Shown here piece after piece: positions 3,816 to 57,200 of a DNA stretch of 64,000 nt. The DNA is from Acinetobacter wuhouensis (lineage in GTDB: Bacteria > Pseudomonadota > Gammaproteobacteria > Pseudomonadales > Moraxellaceae). The notes under the pieces are model-generated. The model saw nothing but the letters and a program-made list of their open reading frames with translations, searched no databases and was not told the DNA's origin. Where the stretch lies: NCBI RefSeq assembly GCF_001696605.3, contig NZ_CP031716.1:2232001-2296000 (forward strand). The letters are read 5' to 3'. The translations under genes and the position numbers were made by a program. Each line of letters starts with the position of its first letter. Position 1 is the first letter of the stretch.

Positions 3816-4826
3816 TTATTTACCATATTGACGTGGGCTTTGCCCAAACCAACGTTTAAATGCATGATTAAATGCTGCTGGTTCAGAATAACCCAACAAT
3901 TCAGCAATCACCTCAATTGAATATTCTTTATATTCAATTAAACGGAGTGCCTTGTTCATAATGAGTTGTTCGCGAATCTGTTTATAACTGGTGTTTAACT
4001 GTTGTAACTGATGACGTAAAGTTCGCTCAGGAATACTCAATGCCTGAGACACTTCTGCCATCGAAGGGATAATGCCCTGTTGTAATTCTAAATAATCATT
4101 TACACGTTGAATCAAAGGCGCAATCTTTTGTTCTTCTGCATTTAAACGCTCAATTTCAGCAATACACTTAGCTTCATAAACACGATGCGTAATCAGATCC
4201 GCAGATGGAATCGGCAGTTGCACTACATCTTCATTCATCCAAAAAGCTGCTTTACTGCAACCAAAATGTAGATCTGCACCATAATAGTCATGGAATTGCT
4301 TTAAGGTTTGAGGATCTTGTGGTTGCTGAAAAGGCAATTCAATCCGAATACTTGGAACTGTTAATCCCATCATTCTATAAATATCATCTAAGAACTTATA
4401 AGTCCCTGAAATTTCACATTGCGCTCGCAACAACCCCATTTCAGTGTCGAGATCAACAGGTGCATAAGTCAATGCAACTTGATGGTTCCCCTGTTCTAAA
4501 CCCAATACACCATATAAATAGGTCAAGCCTTGATATTGAATACCATTTTTAATTGCATCATTCACAGTACGACTAGTGACCAACAGCATAAGCAAAGGAC
4601 CATAACCTGCCAAAGAATAATGCTGCCCAATGAACAAACCTTTTTCAGGCGCAACATCAACACCAACAACTTTAAGAATATCCCATTCTAAACTTGGATG
4701 AATAATTGAGCTTGGATCAAGTGCATCAGCTTTAATTCCAATACTGGCAAGCCGTGAATCCACATCGATTCCTGCATTACGCATACCATGAATTAAATAC
4801 ATTAAACCGAGGATTGATCGCTTCAT
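3816..4826 (-). CDS. AraC-family transcriptional regulator (OruR-like)
   Basis: A 336-residue regulator with an N-terminal ligand-sensing domain of the arabinose-binding-like type found in OruR/ArgR-type AraC proteins (about residues 20-210) and a C-terminal double helix-turn-helix (about 235-334). The end matches the AraC signature: IEVIAELLGYSEPAAFNHAF followed by a FGQSPRQYG-like segment. It is transcribed divergently from the flavin monooxygenase at 4980 across a 153-base gap, the usual arrangement for a regulator controlling its neighbour. The inducer is unknown. Relatives often sit beside monooxygenase and dehydrogenase genes, which supports but does not prove control of the neighbour. 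Confidence 0.85.
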   Translation of the reverse strand: MKRSILGLMYLIHGMRNAGIDVDSRLASIGIKADALDPSSIIHPSLEWDILKVVGVDVAPEKGLFIGQHYSLAGYGPLLMLLVTSRTVNDAIKNGIQYQGLTYLYGVLGLEQGNHQVALTYAPVDLDTEMGLLRAQCEISGTYKFLDDIYRMMGLTVPSIRIELPFQQPQDPQTLKQFHDYYGADLHFGCSKAAFWMNEDVVQLPIPSADLITHRVYEAKCIAEIERLNAEEQKIAPLIQRVNDYLELQQGIIPSMAEVSQALSIPERTLRHQLQQLNTSYKQIREQLIMNKALRLIEYKEYSIEVIAELLGYSEPAAFNHAFKRWFGQSPRQYGK

Positions 4827-4979
4827 TTTTTCAACATTTCATTTTTACACAGATGTTTTACTACAAAGACCAAATATTGAAAATTGCCGAATATATCAAT
4901 TTTTCTGTCAGAGCTATCATATTCCAAATCAATAAAAGTCGATATTCTAGGCAAAATGAAAAATTAGAGTAAATAAAAA

Positions 4980-6503
4980 ATGGACGATATCTCGACGAAT
5001 GTTGTGAAAACACAAACCACTCAAGTCGCAATCATTGGTTCTGGTTTTGGTGGTTTAGCTATGGCTATTCGACTCTTACAGGCGAATATTCACGATTTTA
5101 TTATCCTCGAAAAAGCCGATGCGGTTGGTGGCACTTGGCGTGAAAATCAATATCCTGGTGCTGCCTGTGATGTGCAATCACACATGTACTCTCTATCTTT
5201 TGCACCTAAAACCGATTGGTCTAAGCGTTATGCGGAAGCACCTGAAATTTATGATTATATTCAAGATTTAATCCATGACTATGATTTAAAAAAATATATT
5301 CAGTTCAATCAAGAAGTCGTTTCAACCCAATATGACGAAGATCATTTCAATTGGCATTTAACTTTAAAAAATGGACAAAAAGTTGATGCTCAATTTGTTG
5401 TATTCGCCTCAGGGCCTTTACATGTGCCACAAATTCCAAACATCAAAGGCATAGAAAAATTCAAAGGTGAGGTATTTCATTCATCACATTGGAACCATGA
5501 TTATAATTTGAACCAAAAGAATGTAGCATCAATTGGTACAGGCGGCAGTGCGATTCAATATATTCCTGAAATTGCACCGAAAGTCGAAAATCTATATGTA
5601 TTTCAACGTACACCGGCATGGGTAATTCCACGTGACGAACGTGCCTATAATGCCCTAGATAAAAAATTATTTAATCGTTTTGAATGGTTTAGAAAACTAC
5701 ACCGTGCTCGTTTATATTGGTCAAATGAATCGAGAGTTGTTCCAATTGTCAAACCTGCCGCCATGAAATATATGCAAAAAGCAGGTGAACTCTTTATCCG
5801 CTATCAAGTCAAAGACAAAGCTTTGGGCAAAAAACTCACCCCAAATTATGTGATGGGTTGTAAACGTATTCTAGTATCAAATAAATATTTCCCAACTTTT
5901 AATCGTAAAAATGTCGAGTTAGTGACTGATGCAATCCAAGAGCTGACCGAGAATGGTATCATCACCAAAGATGGTAAAGAGCGTAAAATTGATTGCTTAA
6001 TTTATGGTACAGGCTTCATTACAGACCCTCGCATCTATTTAAAATCATTTGAATGCTATGGTGAAAACGGGCTTGAACTGAAAGATGCGTGGAAAGATGG
6101 AGCTGAAAGCTTCTATGGCGTATGTACCAAAGGTTTCCCTAATTTATTTCAACTATTAGGGCCAAATACTGTTTTGGGACACAACTCAGTTATTTTCATG
6201 ATCGAATCACAGGTCAATTACATTTTACAATTGATGCAAATGGTAGGAAAAACCAAGACCCAAGCCATCGCAGTCAAAGCGAATGTTCAAGACCAGTTTA
6301 ATGAAGATGTACAAAAAAAGCTTGAAGGCACAGTTTGGCAATCTGGTTGTGTCAGTTGGTATCAACAAGATGGAGGAAAAAACTTCTCACTTTGGCCAAC
6401 GTATACTTGGAAATTTTGGCTACAAACCCGTAAAGCCAATCCTGCTGATTATCGCCTACTAGGTACAATGTCACAAAACAAGAAAAAATCAAAAGCTGCT
6501 TAG
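4980..6503 (+). CDS. Flavin-containing monooxygenase, Baeyer-Villiger type
   Basis: FAD/NADPH-dependent monooxygenase of 507 residues. An N-terminal FAD-binding Rossmann motif GSGFGG spans about 20-25. The Baeyer-Villiger fingerprint FKGEVFHSSHW lies at about 161-171, with Asn following the Trp where Pro or Asp is usual. A second dinucleotide motif, GTGGSA, lies at about 186-191. Enzymes of this class insert oxygen next to a carbonyl (ketone to ester or lactone) or oxidise sulfides, and Acinetobacter members include cyclohexanone-type enzymes. The substrate here cannot be named. The AraC-type gene on the other strand is the likely regulator. A hairpin with a T run follows the stop. Confidence 0.87.
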   Translation: MDDISTNVVKTQTTQVAIIGSGFGGLAMAIRLLQANIHDFIILEKADAVGGTWRENQYPGAACDVQSHMYSLSFAPKTDWSKRYAEAPEIYDYIQDLIHDYDLKKYIQFNQEVVSTQYDEDHFNWHLTLKNGQKVDAQFVVFASGPLHVPQIPNIKGIEKFKGEVFHSSHWNHDYNLNQKNVASIGTGGSAIQYIPEIAPKVENLYVFQRTPAWVIPRDERAYNALDKKLFNRFEWFRKLHRARLYWSNESRVVPIVKPAAMKYMQKAGELFIRYQVKDKALGKKLTPNYVMGCKRILVSNKYFPTFNRKNVELVTDAIQELTENGIITKDGKERKIDCLIYGTGFITDPRIYLKSFECYGENGLELKDAWKDGAESFYGVCTKGFPNLFQLLGPNTVLGHNSVIFMIESQVNYILQLMQMVGKTKTQAIAVKANVQDQFNEDVQKKLEGTVWQSGCVSWYQQDGGKNFSLWPTYTWKFWLQTRKANPADYRLLGTMSQNKKKSKAA

Positions 6504-52409: not shown

Positions 52410-52841
52410 ATGACTACAGTAGCACAAGTAATCCAAGATAAAATTGGTCGTGAAGTTTATACGATTTCGCCGTCTGCCACGGTTTTAGAAGCAATTACGC
52501 TTATGGCAAATAAAGGTATTGGTGCAGTAGTCGTAACAGAAGACAGTAAGCTGGTCGGCATCCTTTCAGAACGTGACTATACCCGTAAAATTGCATTGAT
52601 GCAGCGTACATCTGACCATACCACTGTCGCTGAGATTATGACATCTAAAGTTATTTCTGTGACGCCAAGCCATACTGTAGAACAATGTCTAGAATTAATG
52701 ACTGACGGTCATCTACGTCACCTCCCTGTACTTGAAGAAGGTGTCTTGGTCGGCTTTGTTTCGATTGGTGACTTGGTCAAAGCCACAATGGAAGATCAGA
52801 AAAAACTGATTGATCAGTTACAGCAATATATTTCAGGTTAA
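52410..52841 (+). CDS. CBS-domain pair protein
   Basis: 143 residues made of two CBS motifs (about 12-65 and 78-133), each with the strand-helix unit VLEAITLMANKGIGAVVV or CLELMTDGHLRHLPVL. Pairs like this bind adenine nucleotides and sense energy state. It stands alone without an enzyme domain. AAGGA precedes the ATG by nine bases. The terminator at 52858 follows. Similar stand-alone CBS proteins are common in proteobacteria; the target is unknown. Confidence 0.88.
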   Translation: MTTVAQVIQDKIGREVYTISPSATVLEAITLMANKGIGAVVVTEDSKLVGILSERDYTRKIALMQRTSDHTTVAEIMTSKVISVTPSHTVEQCLELMTDGHLRHLPVLEEGVLVGFVSIGDLVKATMEDQKKLIDQLQQYISG

Positions 52842-52857
52842 TTTTTTAAATTGATAG

Positions 52858-52879
52858 AACCCTCTTTTGAGGGTTTTAT
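52858..52879. terminator. Terminator between the CBS gene and the MoeA-like pair
   Basis: AACCCTC (52858-52864) pairs with GAGGGTT (52869-52875), TTTT loop, then TTATTTTG. It lies 16 bases after the CBS stop and about 25 bases beyond the stop of the convergent MoeA-like gene. Confidence 0.75.
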
Positions 52880-52902
52880 TTTGTGTTAATTTTTTAGTAT
52901 GG

Positions 52903-54327
52903 TTAAATTTCCAAATAATATAAATAGTCGCCTGCTTTTAACGGATTATCCTCACCTGAAATAGGAATAAAACAATTACAATCTTTCATAAAAGAAAGCA
53001 TATCTGGGCGTTCATTTTCTACAGTTATTATTTTTAGTTCAGGAGTGCTACCGATTCTCATTTCATTAAACTTACCATCATAATGAACATCAGATACAAA
53101 TGCCCATAAAACTTGAGTATCGTGCGTATTTTTTAAGGTTAAATTATAATTATGTGTCAATATACCTATTTTCCAATCAGGTTGAAATGGTCGAGCATAT
53201 AAACGATTTAATATATTTGGTTTTACAATAACGTGCATATTTATAATAATGTCAAGAATATTACCTGGTAAATAAGTTATCACACAAAAATCATCAAAAC
53301 TCTTTTGTATCTCTGCTCGAACCATTCCTTTTTCATCAGTAAATTTTATTTTTTTTCGTATAGTTGGAGCTTTCAATTCACCACAATACATTCGATATGA
53401 ATTGCCAATTAAGGAATCCGAAGAAATATCATTATGAAAAAAACGGTTCGTTGCCATTAATCCTAAACGACTAAGTGTTTTATTATTAACCAACCCACAT
53501 GCGACTATATAATCATAGCTGTTTGCGATGTCTTTCAATTTTTTTACATAAGTCTTTACATCAATTGTTGAAATTAAATCATCTTCGTTATCAATCTTAG
53601 TTTCACTTTCGAAAAAAGGCTTTATTTTCACAATTTCTGCTTCAAATCCCCAAAGTTTCATACATTCTTGAATATATCTAAACTCTGCATTACTGTTTAA
53701 ATCTTCCAAGTCATAATCAACACAAAGTAAAGCAAATTTTGTGGTTTTATATGCAGTAACGTGTGTAATTTCAGCCTGTTCAAGTAACATTTTCTTGGTT
53801 AGTGTTATTATAGTATCTTTGTTTAATATAATTTCTCTTTTTTTATAATCCGAACCAACTGAAATTAAACCTTTACCAATTTGTATTGGTTCCAGTCGTT
53901 CTCCTCCTTTCAGTGAAAAATCTCCTCGTACCCCCAACCATGCGGAATATTGTTCCGTTGGAATTACTGTATTTGCAATATTTCCAATTTTCATATAGCG
54001 TGAAATACTAGATGTATATTCTTTATTTAAAAACAGTCGAAATGGGTTTTCAGACCTCGACAAAGCACCATAAAAATTCACTATATCAATGCTTTTGATT
54101 TGTTCAGGAGTTGATACTTCATGTTGAATATTGAACATTTCTCCATCTATTGCGGATAATGCAATAGATGGGTAATCTGTATTGGCTTGAACATCTTCCG
54201 CCAATTTTCTGCCTAAACACTCTTCGATAGAAATCATTTCTGTAAAATTAGGGTTTGGCATTCTTTCATTAATTTTGGTTAATTGACGAAATATTTGATC
54301 TACAATTTTTTTGTTTTTTATATTCAT
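52903..54327 (-). CDS. Divergent MoeA-like protein, second of a tandem pair
   Basis: 474 residues with the outline of molybdopterin molybdotransferase. N-terminal part: SIEECLGRKLAEDV at 33-46, then SAIDG at 58-62 in place of the usual SAMDGYA, with the Asp kept. IGNIANTVIP (114-123) stands where MoeA has the TGA-P-P-GAD loop. Middle part: ACGL (276-279) replaces the TGG-S-G motif, and YLPGN (352-356) matches the LPGNP end. C-terminal part ends NCFIPI...LKAGDYLYYLEI. It is about 70 residues longer than typical MoeA. It lies 12 bases after its paralogue. No molybdenum gene is near. Activity as a true MoeA seems doubtful. Confidence 0.65.
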   Translation of the reverse strand: MNIKNKKIVDQIFRQLTKINERMPNPNFTEMISIEECLGRKLAEDVQANTDYPSIALSAIDGEMFNIQHEVSTPEQIKSIDIVNFYGALSRSENPFRLFLNKEYTSSISRYMKIGNIANTVIPTEQYSAWLGVRGDFSLKGGERLEPIQIGKGLISVGSDYKKREIILNKDTIITLTKKMLLEQAEITHVTAYKTTKFALLCVDYDLEDLNSNAEFRYIQECMKLWGFEAEIVKIKPFFESETKIDNEDDLISTIDVKTYVKKLKDIANSYDYIVACGLVNNKTLSRLGLMATNRFFHNDISSDSLIGNSYRMYCGELKAPTIRKKIKFTDEKGMVRAEIQKSFDDFCVITYLPGNILDIIINMHVIVKPNILNRLYARPFQPDWKIGILTHNYNLTLKNTHDTQVLWAFVSDVHYDGKFNEMRIGSTPELKIITVENERPDMLSFMKDCNCFIPISGEDNPLKAGDYLYYLEI

Positions 54328-54339
54328 ATATAATGCTTC

Positions 54340-55770
54340 TTAAATTTCCAAATAATATAAATGATCACCTGCTTTTAAATCTCCATCAATCTTTTTGATT
54401 GGAATAAAGCAATTACAATTCCTGAAAAAAAATATATTATCGGGTCTTATATCATCCGTATCAAAAATAGTAATTTCTGCATTTTTTTTCATAGAAAACT
54501 TATCTGCATCTTGTGGTTCGAATTGCGTAACAAATGCCCATCTAATTGTATTTCGCTTCCCTTCTTTCCAATCAATATAATAGTCATGAGTCAAAACAGC
54601 CACTTTATAATCAGGAGAATGAAACTTCTGCTCTTTAAAACTTTTCAGCATGGGTTTAATCCACATAGTCATATTAATTATAATATCTTGCATACAACCT
54701 GGTAAATAACACACTACTGCACGATTTTCCAATCTAAAAACTCTGTTTCCTTTTACCATATTGTTTTCATAGTATTTTTTTTGAAAGTTAGATATAGGTT
54801 GCCGTAAATCTCCAAAATAAATATAAAACTTATTGTCATCAATATAATTATTTAAAATAGAATAAGTTTGTCTAAAACCTCTTTTTAAACCTAAATTTCT
54901 TGTACTATATGAATCAGATAACCCACATGCCACTACAAAATCATATTCTTCTGTAATTTTTGAAATTTCTTTTTTAAATTGTTCAAATTCATTGGCTATG
55001 CCAGCATCAACAGCTTCAACATTCATTCTATTTTCTTTGACTGGTTTAATTTTAATAGTGTCAAAAATATACCCCCAATCTGTTAAACAATCTTGGATAT
55101 ATTGAAATTCAAGATTTTTATTATAATATTCAATATCATAATCTGCATACAAAACTACGATTTTAATATCTTTATAAACCAGTATTTTATCTACCCCTGC
55201 CTGACTCATAAGTGCTTTTTTAACACTGTTAATAATTTCATTTTGTTTTAGCAGTAACTCACTTTCTTGATAATCTTCTCCTTTAAGGAACAGCCCCTGT
55301 CCCTTAGTAATTGGTACTAATTCATTATCTTCGCTACTTATGATTTGTTCACAATGCCATGGATGTGCGTGTGACCTAGAAATTACTGTGTTCGCAATAG
55401 CGCCTATTTGTATATATTTATCTATAAATGATTGGATTTTGATATTTTTATCTAAAGCATAAGGATTTTCACCTAATTCTAATTTATTAAAAAAATTCTG
55501 TTTATCATGTTTTTTGAATTGATCAATCGTAGTGATATCTTCATCTAAATTAAACATATAGCCTTCTATGGCAGAGAGCGCTACTTGTGGATAGCAACGA
55601 GACGCTAATACATCCTGTGCAAGCTTTCGACCAACACTATCACTTACTTTGACCAATTCTTTTTCAAATAATGAATAATCTTTTTCTACCACTCTTCTGA
55701 ATTGATGATCCATTAATTGGTAAATCATTTCTAGTACGCTATTGGCTGCATATATGTTTTTAATATTCAT
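54340..55770 (-). CDS. Divergent MoeA-like protein, first of a tandem pair
   Basis: 476 residues, paralogue of the following gene. Shared blocks include SVGRKLAQDV (45-54), YPQVALSAIEG (60-70; Glu replaces the MoeA Asp), IGAIANTVI (122-130), YADYDIEYYN, EFQYIQDCL (221-229), YDFVVACGL (276-284), YLPGCMQDIIINM (355-367) and the C-terminal NCFIPI and LKAGDHLYYLEI. The third base of the LPGNP motif region is changed to LPGC. SD AAAGG lies upstream of the ATG. It starts a two-gene unit beginning after the trpB terminator. The gene is rich in Lys, Ile, Asn and AT, more so than its neighbours, which may point to transfer. Confidence 0.65.
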   Translation of the reverse strand: MNIKNIYAANSVLEMIYQLMDHQFRRVVEKDYSLFEKELVKVSDSVGRKLAQDVLASRCYPQVALSAIEGYMFNLDEDITTIDQFKKHDKQNFFNKLELGENPYALDKNIKIQSFIDKYIQIGAIANTVISRSHAHPWHCEQIISSEDNELVPITKGQGLFLKGEDYQESELLLKQNEIINSVKKALMSQAGVDKILVYKDIKIVVLYADYDIEYYNKNLEFQYIQDCLTDWGYIFDTIKIKPVKENRMNVEAVDAGIANEFEQFKKEISKITEEYDFVVACGLSDSYSTRNLGLKRGFRQTYSILNNYIDDNKFYIYFGDLRQPISNFQKKYYENNMVKGNRVFRLENRAVVCYLPGCMQDIIINMTMWIKPMLKSFKEQKFHSPDYKVAVLTHDYYIDWKEGKRNTIRWAFVTQFEPQDADKFSMKKNAEITIFDTDDIRPDNIFFFRNCNCFIPIKKIDGDLKAGDHLYYLEI

Positions 55771-55826
55771 GAAAGACCTTTTTTGAGTAATAGTATATTG
55801 TTAAAATTTCTTATAGTGTCCTTAAG

Positions 55827-55840
55827 TTCTTATTTAAGAA
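55827..55840. promoter_or_regulatory. Palindrome upstream of the MoeA-like pair
   Basis: TTCTTATTTAAGAA is a perfect 14-base palindrome (6-bp arms, TT centre), 57 bases upstream of the first MoeA-like ATG and directly beside CTTAAG. On the minus strand a TATACT-like -10 lies between it and the ATG with a weak GGACAC -35. It could be an operator; AT-rich palindromes also occur by chance. Confidence 0.35.
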
Positions 55841-55940
55841 TACTTTGTTCCAAAGCACTACAGATTTTACAAATTCAAACCGATTTACTATTAATATGCA
55901 TAATACAAAGTTTTAATTTATGATTATTATATCAAACAAT

Positions 55941-55968
55941 AAAAAACCTAGCCGTAGCTAGGTTTTAT
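55941..55968 (-). terminator. Terminator downstream of trpB
   Basis: A 10-bp perfect stem AAAACCTAGC (55943-55952) with GCTAGGTTTT (55957-55966), CGTA loop. On the minus strand a T6 tract follows. It separates trpB from the MoeA-like pair. Confidence 0.88.
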
Positions 55969-55988
55969 CAAATCAGATCGTTAGAAAA

Positions 55989-57200
55989 TTAGTTCAAACC
56001 CAATTTTCCAGCAACATAATCTGCATCTTTATCGCCACGACCAGAAAGGTTCACAACAATCTTAGTGTCTTTAGACAGTTTCGGCGCTTCACGAATCGCC
56101 CATGCCACCGCATGTGAGCTTTCTAGTGCAGGCACAATACCTTCAACACGAGAAAGTGTCATAAATGCATCTAAACATTCTTGGTCTGTCGCTGTTGAAT
56201 ATTCCACACGACCTAAATCTTTCAAGAAGCTATGCTGAGGACCTACCCCCGGATAATCCAATCCAGATGCAATCGAATGCACAGGTAAAGGTTCGCCCTG
56301 CTCATCCTCAAGCACATAACACGCCATACCATGAATTTGGCTTGGTTTACCCAAAGTCAAAGTCGCAGAATGCATATCTGTATCTAAACCATGACCCGCA
56401 GGCTCTACACCCACCAACTTCACATCAGCATCATTTAAAAATGCTGTGAATGCACCGACAGCATTTGAACCACCACCAACACAGGCAACCACATAGTCTG
56501 GATGCGCACCAAAGCGATCTTGAGTTTGGACTTTAATTTCATTACCAATGATTGATTGGAAATCACGTACCATTTTCGGGAACGGATGTGGACCGACGAC
56601 AGAACCAATCGCATAGATAAAGTTCTTCGGATCTTTTAAATATTCTTCAAATGCGCTATCTACAGCATCTTTTAATGTTGCAGTACCTTGAGTCACAGAA
56701 ACCAGTTTTGCACCCAAAATCTTCATTTTCACAACATTTGGATGTTCTTTTTCAATATCCACTTGTCCCATATGAATTTCACATGGAATACCCACCAAAG
56801 CACATGCTGTCGCCAAAGCCACACCATGTTGACCCGCGCCAGTTTCTGCAATCACTTTGGTTTTATTCATATACTTGGCAAGTAATGCTTCACCTAAGCA
56901 GTGATTGATTTTGTGTGCGCCCGTGTGATTTAAATCTTCACGTTTCAGATAAATTTGCGCACCGCCCAATTGATCAGACAAACGCTTTGCATGGAACAAA
57001 GGACTTGGGCGTCCTACATAATGGGCAAATAAATCAGCGAGTTCATTTTGAAATTCTGGTGTTTTACGAATCGCTTCATAAGCCACATTAATTTCATCCA
57101 TCGCTTCTTTTAGATGTGGAGGAATAAACTGACCGCCGTACTCACCAAAGAAACCGTCTTCATTGGGTAAAGCTATTCCGTTAATTTGATGTTCCATCAT
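55989..57200 (-). CDS. trpB: Tryptophan synthase beta subunit, stand-alone copy
   Basis: 403 residues, PLP-dependent: joins indole and serine to make tryptophan. The PLP lysine is in [14 protein letters not shown] (about 89-102), the catalytic Glu in AETGAGQHG (about 118-126), and the phosphate loop is GGGSNAVG (about 242-249). No trpA or trpF is beside it, and the N-terminus ([19 protein letters not shown]) and the [18 protein letters not shown] segment differ from the usual Acinetobacter-type TrpB I would expect in the trpFBA operon. It may be a second TrpB acting on free indole. Followed by its own terminator. Confidence 0.85.

Follow-up and report, generated by a model that had tools for sequence, protein, structure and literature searches.

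Two consecutive genes in a stretch of Acinetobacter wuhouensis DNA raise the question of what a bacterium does with a pair of strongly diverged copies of MoeA, the molybdopterin molybdotransferase, at a place with no other molybdenum cofactor gene nearby. The stretch, here termed the window, is 64,000 nt long and belongs to contig NZ_CP031716.1. Both genes are on the minus strand with a spacing of 12 bp; B476 (positions 54340-55770, 476 aa) is the first gene of the unit and A474 (52903-54327, 474 aa) the second. The two open reading frames (ORFs), which an earlier note on this sequence had described, are intact, and their translated aa sequences display 35-36% identity. The answer that appears likely is that A474, B476 and their relatives are immunity proteins with a MoeA fold that act against a secreted NucB-type DNase, and that the window holds an orphan array of two such genes. 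This is proposed because the DNase gene directly precedes the MoeA-like gene at eight of eight full-length DNases found in Acinetobacter and at two of two found in Burkholderia records.

The family was surveyed in 175 Acinetobacter genomes with a profile that includes relatives of the window proteins (profile A5). There are 23 MoeA-like genes in 20 genomes, scoring 408-705 bits; the next match is a true MoeA at 79 bits, and the MoeA-like family is discrete from true MoeA. A474 and B476, both members of the profile, score 554 and 541 bits, respectively. A search with the window pair alone finds 22 genes in 19 genomes, the extra gene of the wider search being a truncated copy in genome G095. Many relatives are named molybdenum cofactor biosynthesis protein MoeA in public records, including those of A. 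baumannii and A. pittii, and this naming of the Acinetobacter members is likely a wide misannotation; one MoeA-named Acinetobacter cluster (found with matches such as P0080) holds 819 member sequences. A scan of genome contigs gave a single locus, in Sulfurospirillum, at 23% identity, and no MoeA-like relative was found on viral contigs.

The DNase partner was found by neighbor clustering of 20 fetched loci and the window. The recurrent partner with a telling domain is a protein of 353-398 aa that starts with a signal-like segment and carries a DNase_NucA_NucB domain at its C-terminus, and its gene adjoins the MoeA-like gene in eight loci; other clusters common to the loci are conserved chromosomal neighbors at shared sites. 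PF14040 matches at 47-51 bits in the three DNases scanned for it, and NCBIfam has no match for three DNases. Comparison of the DNase profile with solved NucB (PDB 5omt, 6ejs) gives a match at the conserved stretch (E 7e-6). The same profile finds the DNase in 9 of the 175 genomes, as eight full-length genes and one DNase tail inside an ORF of 3071 aa. A MoeA-like gene lies directly downstream of all eight full-length genes, on the same strand and after a gap of 12-76 bp. This order, in which a gene directly follows a toxin-like nuclease, is that of effector-immunity pairs. It is not seen at the window locus, and no DNase was detected in the window genome with the DNase profile at E <= 1e-10. 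The 3071-aa ORF (L062:5023-14238, minus strand) contains, close to its end, a part similar to the DNase domain, and the gene after it (4179-5042) shows a weak SUKH match that is below cut-off (E 0.002).

A hairpin of 9-14 pairs (-12 to -21 kcal/mol) is present in the gap between the DNase and MoeA-like genes at seven of the eight Acinetobacter loci (L029, L032, L033, L034, L039, L041 and L042). The stem bases vary between loci, and in L031 the hairpin sequence is still visible after loss of the DNase gene. The hairpin may set the ratio of DNase to MoeA-like product.

The pairing extends beyond Acinetobacter. A tblastn search of a plasmid collection with the DNase returned 54 records, of which two, from B. 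cenocepacia and B. stagnalis, are covered over at least 80% of the query; both contain the pair of DNase and MoeA-like genes. In B. arboris a MoeA-like gene is present and the DNase was not found within the 13 kb read. The DNases of the three branches of the family are 38-47% identical. Searches for the DNase in 390 genomes of the order and 369 of the class gave none, but these sets contain no known-positive genome and the inclusion of Burkholderia in them is not established, so that the counts are uninformative.

The Burkholderia partners bring in an immunity domain of their own. All three that were tested (680-691 aa) consist of MoeA_N together with SMI1_KNR4, i.e., SUKH-1 (E 8e-20, 1e-20 and 5e-19), and precomputed domains show the same combination in eight further protein clusters of 669-680 aa. 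The SUKH domain is absent from the window proteins and from the other Acinetobacter proteins scanned, which have the MoeA part only. In a survey of polymorphic toxins, SUKH is listed among the immunity proteins of the Tox-NucA class (PMC3482391), which may correspond to PF14040. A recent preprint reports protection from a nuclease effector by orphan SUKH proteins that have diverged (PMC12247911). For esaG, strings of immunity genes that differ from one another are known, and strains lacking the toxin have them as well (PMC9484751).

Orphans are frequent in the MoeA-like family as well. Fifteen of the 23 Acinetobacter copies have no DNase neighbor in the loci read (the window pair, the tandem in G031, the copy in G059 and ten others), two sets of them being tandems, and 14 of the 15 orphan genes are open over their full length. 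A comparison of G006 with G014 shows one loss: the DNase gene is gone except for a decayed tail of ~60 bases, and the intergenic hairpin and the MoeA-like ORF are kept. The same neighborhood in an A. baumannii record contains a MoeA-like gene of 98% identity and no DNase ORF. Where G173 has the DNase/MoeA-like pair, G095 has an N-truncated MoeA-like ORF beside ORFs that by eye are transposase-like. Two Acinetobacter plasmids (9 and 14 kb) encode an identical MoeA-like protein of 463 aa (L056:4258-5649 and L057:6034-7425) with no DNase match, and are examples of plasmid-borne orphans.

The two members of the pair change at different rates. The ten linked loci give 45 pairwise comparisons. The DNase is the better conserved of the two proteins in 42 of them, both are equal in one, and the MoeA-like protein is ahead, by 2-3 percentage points, in two; examples of identity for MoeA-like protein and DNase are 63 vs 84%, 41 vs 58% and 88 vs 99%. 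In 21 comparisons with the true MoeA of the same hosts, the MoeA-like protein shows the lower conservation in 15, the same in one and the higher in five. The MoeA-like protein thus changes more quickly than the DNase; it also outpaces true MoeA, mainly when the more distant loci are compared. For effector-immunity pairs a rapidly changing immunity side would be expected. Loci L034 and L039 have DNases that are 99% identical, MoeA-like partners that are 88% identical and hosts whose true MoeA is 79% identical; this DNase was probably transferred between species recently.

By eye and hydropathy, a hydrophobic N-terminus is found in the five DNases measured; nine MoeA-like proteins lack one, and B476 has none. 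Because of the signal-like N-terminus the DNase probably leaves the cytoplasm. In the proposed mechanism the exported DNase would reach related cells and, on entering them, would act as an antibacterial toxin, and the cytoplasmic MoeA-like protein would bind it and block chromosome cutting in the producer and its kin. The orphan pair of the window would protect against the DNases of neighbors. A milder form of the same reading has a nutritional or matrix DNase for which the MoeA-like protein would serve as a safety inhibitor.

The strict linkage with a DNase whose N-terminus is signal-like, together with a MoeA-like protein that by sequence is cytoplasmic, could also point to a chaperone or export helper that would prevent folding or activity of the DNase before it is exported. 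This is unlikely, as a helper without cargo should decay, whereas 15 of the 23 copies lack a DNase and 14 of these are open over their full length; the fusion with SUKH-1 also fits immunity. A further alternative is an anti-phage or other defense module with the DNase as effector and the MoeA-like protein as sensor or regulator. It draws on the SUKH part of one Burkholderia partner, which matches the PADLOC model PDC-M40A (5.9e-54), and is less probable again: the DNase has a signal-like N-terminus and is probably exported, the orphans have no effector, and PADLOC has no match in the window pair, a further Acinetobacter partner or the two DNases tested.

The ancestry of the two window proteins bears on whether they could still be cofactor enzymes. 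Both match Pfam MoeA_N above its cut-off of 30.8 bits (A474 at 41.1 bits, B476 at 36.3 bits). Neither matches PF00994 or PF03454 at E <= 1, such that of the three Pfam domains that the earlier note had proposed to look for only the first is recognized. The NCBIfam MoeA equivalog, whose cut-off is 440, gives the window proteins 40.2 and 43.3 bits. In profile-profile comparison the profile of the family aligns with that of 13 true Acinetobacter MoeA proteins over 378 columns (probability 99.8%, E 5e-29), and that of the window branch over 369 columns (98.3%, E 3e-14). The alignment spans domains I to IV, up to the end of the latter, and the order of domains is kept. Solved chains of MoeA, gephyrin and CNX1 are also matched by the family profile, mainly in domains I-II, with weak stretches in domain IV. 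A474 and B476 are MoeA-derived, and their homology is settled as far as sequence allows. The shared C-terminus (NCFIPI…LKAGD), which had been taken for a gain, is inherited, because the alignment extends to the end of domain IV, where this segment pairs with ANCLVRIPA…AGQ of true MoeA; it is the ordinary end of that domain, and the idea of a gained end was rejected. The approximately 70 extra residues noted earlier are present, A474 being 66 and B476 68 residues longer than the true MoeA of the window genome (408 aa).

The motifs in which the pair departs from MoeA are as first described (SAIDG in one protein and SAIEG in the other, ACGL in both, LPGN in one and LPGC in the other). Residues kept across the family were counted by aligning 39 MoeA-like sequences together with 13 of true MoeA. 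D139, R141, K283, K286 and R356 are invariant in the 13 true MoeA sequences and are kept in none of the 39 MoeA-like ones, and the same zero applies to T189 and D191. T253 is kept in 1/39, S257 in 1/39 (in a region that is poorly aligned), S376 in 2/39, D61 in 5/39, E192 in 11/39 and E118 in 18/39. D139, R141, T189, D191, K283, K286, R356, T253, S257, S376 and D61 are active-site residues by work on E. coli MoeA, and the first seven are retained in none of the 39 sequences. A separate function common to the two proteins, as the earlier note suggested, is supported. Some fold positions are retained: G62 and G308 in all 39 sequences, G144 in 38, S58 in 34 and P307 in 33. Of the positions without variation in true MoeA, the majority have disappeared from most of the 39 sequences, and loss of the cofactor role is supported.

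Nor does the family occur with the cofactor pathway. The true moeA gene of the window genome and its only MoaC match are ~1.0 Mb from the pair on the same contig. In 19 of the 20 host genomes there is a single true MoeA (E 1.3e-30 or better) together with a match to MoaC. The twentieth, the draft genome G059, carries a MoeA-like gene and shows no MoeA_N or MoaC match at E <= 1e-3. G059 is searchable, since 13 radical-SAM matches are found in it; PF03453 misses its own MoeA-like gene, and for this reason the negative calls for caution about sensitivity with MoeA_N, less so with MoaC. A diverged molybdenum cofactor enzyme that acts on an unusual cofactor or substrate would account for the whole-length homology to MoeA, for the name that databases give to the relatives and for the MoeA positions that persist. 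With most invariant positions gone from most of the 39 sequences, and with a separate true MoeA and moaC in 19 of the 20 hosts and neither found in the twentieth, it is very improbable.

A tree rooted on true MoeA gathers all 39 MoeA-like rows into a single group (100/100), which divides into three branches, one of Burkholderia (3 rows), one of a 468-aa type (16 rows) and one of the 477-aa type of the window (20 rows). It should be noted that long branches meet in this tree, so that the deep order inside the group is unsure. DNase-linked and orphan rows of known context interleave. A474 pairs with P0003 (100/100), and B476 is alone at the base of its branch; the tandem genes of G031 group with P0010 and P0006, at other places than the window pair. 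The tandems of the window and of G031 are thus not one inherited pair, because their members fall in different branches. Tandem copies are found side by side in only these two of the 20 host genomes, 17 have single copies, and the two copies of G173 are on different contigs. True MoeA is a dimer, and the tandem pair is conserved in blocks, but a heterodimer devoted to a new pathway, with the roles divided between its two members, as the earlier note had raised, is the least probable of the alternatives and was rejected on copy number and on the tree. Under the immunity reading it is rather probable, if less firmly so than the reading itself, that the MoeA fold was converted to a class of large immunity proteins before the Acinetobacter and Burkholderia branches of the family parted, with a double inhibitor that includes SUKH in Burkholderia and fast-diverging orphans and arrays in Acinetobacter.

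Several observations weigh against an immunity function. The window genes are assigned through DNase-linked relatives that are 21-45% identical to A474, and the window genome itself shows no DNase at E <= 1e-10. The eight linked loci are not independent, as six of their DNases are 75-99% identical, and the remaining 52 of the 54 plasmid-collection records, mostly Streptomyces, match less than 80% of the DNase; the neighbors read are those of the two records with fuller coverage. Ten cysteines are invariant in seven aligned DNases, and the DNase may therefore fold only outside the cytoplasm, which makes the producer's need for a cytoplasmic inhibitor less obvious. An entry domain is not recognized in the DNase, which could be an ordinary extracellular nuclease, and a distant DNase (~31% identical) on a viral-classed contig (L063:4707-5777) has no MoeA-like ORF in the stretch read. 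On the side of the MoeA-like protein, ~470 aa is large for an immunity protein, and some MoeA positions persist (S58, P307 and, in 18/39, E118). The PADLOC match lies in residues 523-687 of the Burkholderia partner (L058:5890-7965), and PDC-M40A is a phage-defense candidate. The cofactor negative of G059 depends on a draft genome, at a threshold of E <= 1e-3, in which PF03453 failed to detect the MoeA-like gene.

The unit is bordered on one side by a trpB-like gene (55989-57200, minus strand; Pfam PALP) and on the other by a convergent CBS-domain gene (52410-52841, plus strand; Pfam). Between the stop of the trpB-like gene and B476 is a leader (55771-55988, minus strand) from which the DNase gene is absent; in G087 the leader ahead of the DNase gene is of similar length, 229 bp. 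Terminator-like hairpins are present 3′ of the trpB-like gene and upstream of the unit (55943-55966, minus strand) and between the unit and the CBS gene (52853-52880, plus strand). The unit had been described as lying between terminators, and a hairpin-like site does flank it on each side; as evidence this is weak, with three such sites found against 1.8 expected by chance. In 500-base windows G+C is 25-33% over A474 and B476; on one side the trpB, VWA and AAA genes have 37-45%, and on the other side the small genes have 32-38%. The low value is compatible with import and is no proof of it.

Inspection by eye of the 175 genomes picked out 83 with both borders close together on one contig. The gap between trpB and CBS is less than 300 bp in 67 of the 83 and larger in 16, which gives the unit the look of an insertion. 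Four of these 16 hold the MoeA-like family. At this site G087 has DNase and MoeA-like genes, G059 one MoeA-like gene, and G031 and the window two each. Three other large gaps were read, and two of them (L121 and L122, from two other species) hold genes that by eye are transposase-like. The gap may be a recurrent place of insertion.

If the immunity reading is true, an enzyme of central metabolism has been converted to an immunity protein, with loss of catalysis and gain of binding, and the DNase provides a partner to test for proteins that are recorded publicly, in A. baumannii, A. pittii and others, under the name of a molybdenum cofactor protein. It would also suggest a secreted DNase arm of Acinetobacter competition, which was not found described in the literature searched. 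Among the matches listed, no title or abstract connects MoeA to immunity or to this DNase, the bulk of subscription papers and preprints being outside the search, and the statement that no system with this pair is described agrees with these matches. A term search of the main text of a study of A. baumannii type VI secretion effectors finds no MoeA, molybdenum, NucA or NucB (PMC6833914). An unrelated DNase with two immunity proteins is described in another report (PMC13392607), and known immunity proteins are typically unrelated to enzymes according to the polymorphic-toxin survey (PMC3482391). For the proteins scanned, NCBIfam gives only matches to MoeA and Glp below cut-off, and PADLOC only the Burkholderia SUKH part.

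Compared with MoeA and the gephyrin E domain, the family has whole-length profile homology, the same domain order and the invariant G62 and G308, and it differs in the loss of most conserved positions, in a length 66-68 aa above that of the host's MoeA, in the absence of moa neighbors and in its coexistence with a true MoeA in 19 of the 20 genomes. Glp (NF045515), by its model name a MoeA-like divisome protein of actinobacteria, is another use of the MoeA fold outside cofactor synthesis; the window proteins score 21.5 and 23.3 bits against its cut-off of 475, and the partner of their relatives is a DNase. NucB, a secreted DNase of the Bacillus type, aligns with the partner DNase at the conserved stretch, while the partner has ~250 extra N-terminal residues without a Pfam match, and a linked gene. 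As kinds of system, effector-immunity pairs and orphan arrays are already known, a MoeA-fold immunity family not having been found in the literature searched. The esaG arrays are Gram-positive and belong to type VII secretion; they are alike in their tandem non-identical immunity genes, which also occur where the toxin is missing (PMC9484751). SUKH systems differ in that the Acinetobacter proteins scanned have only the MoeA part, and they are alike in the nuclease toxin with an immunity gene, in the orphan diverged copies and in the SUKH-1 domain that the Burkholderia partners themselves carry (PMC12247911, PMC3482391).

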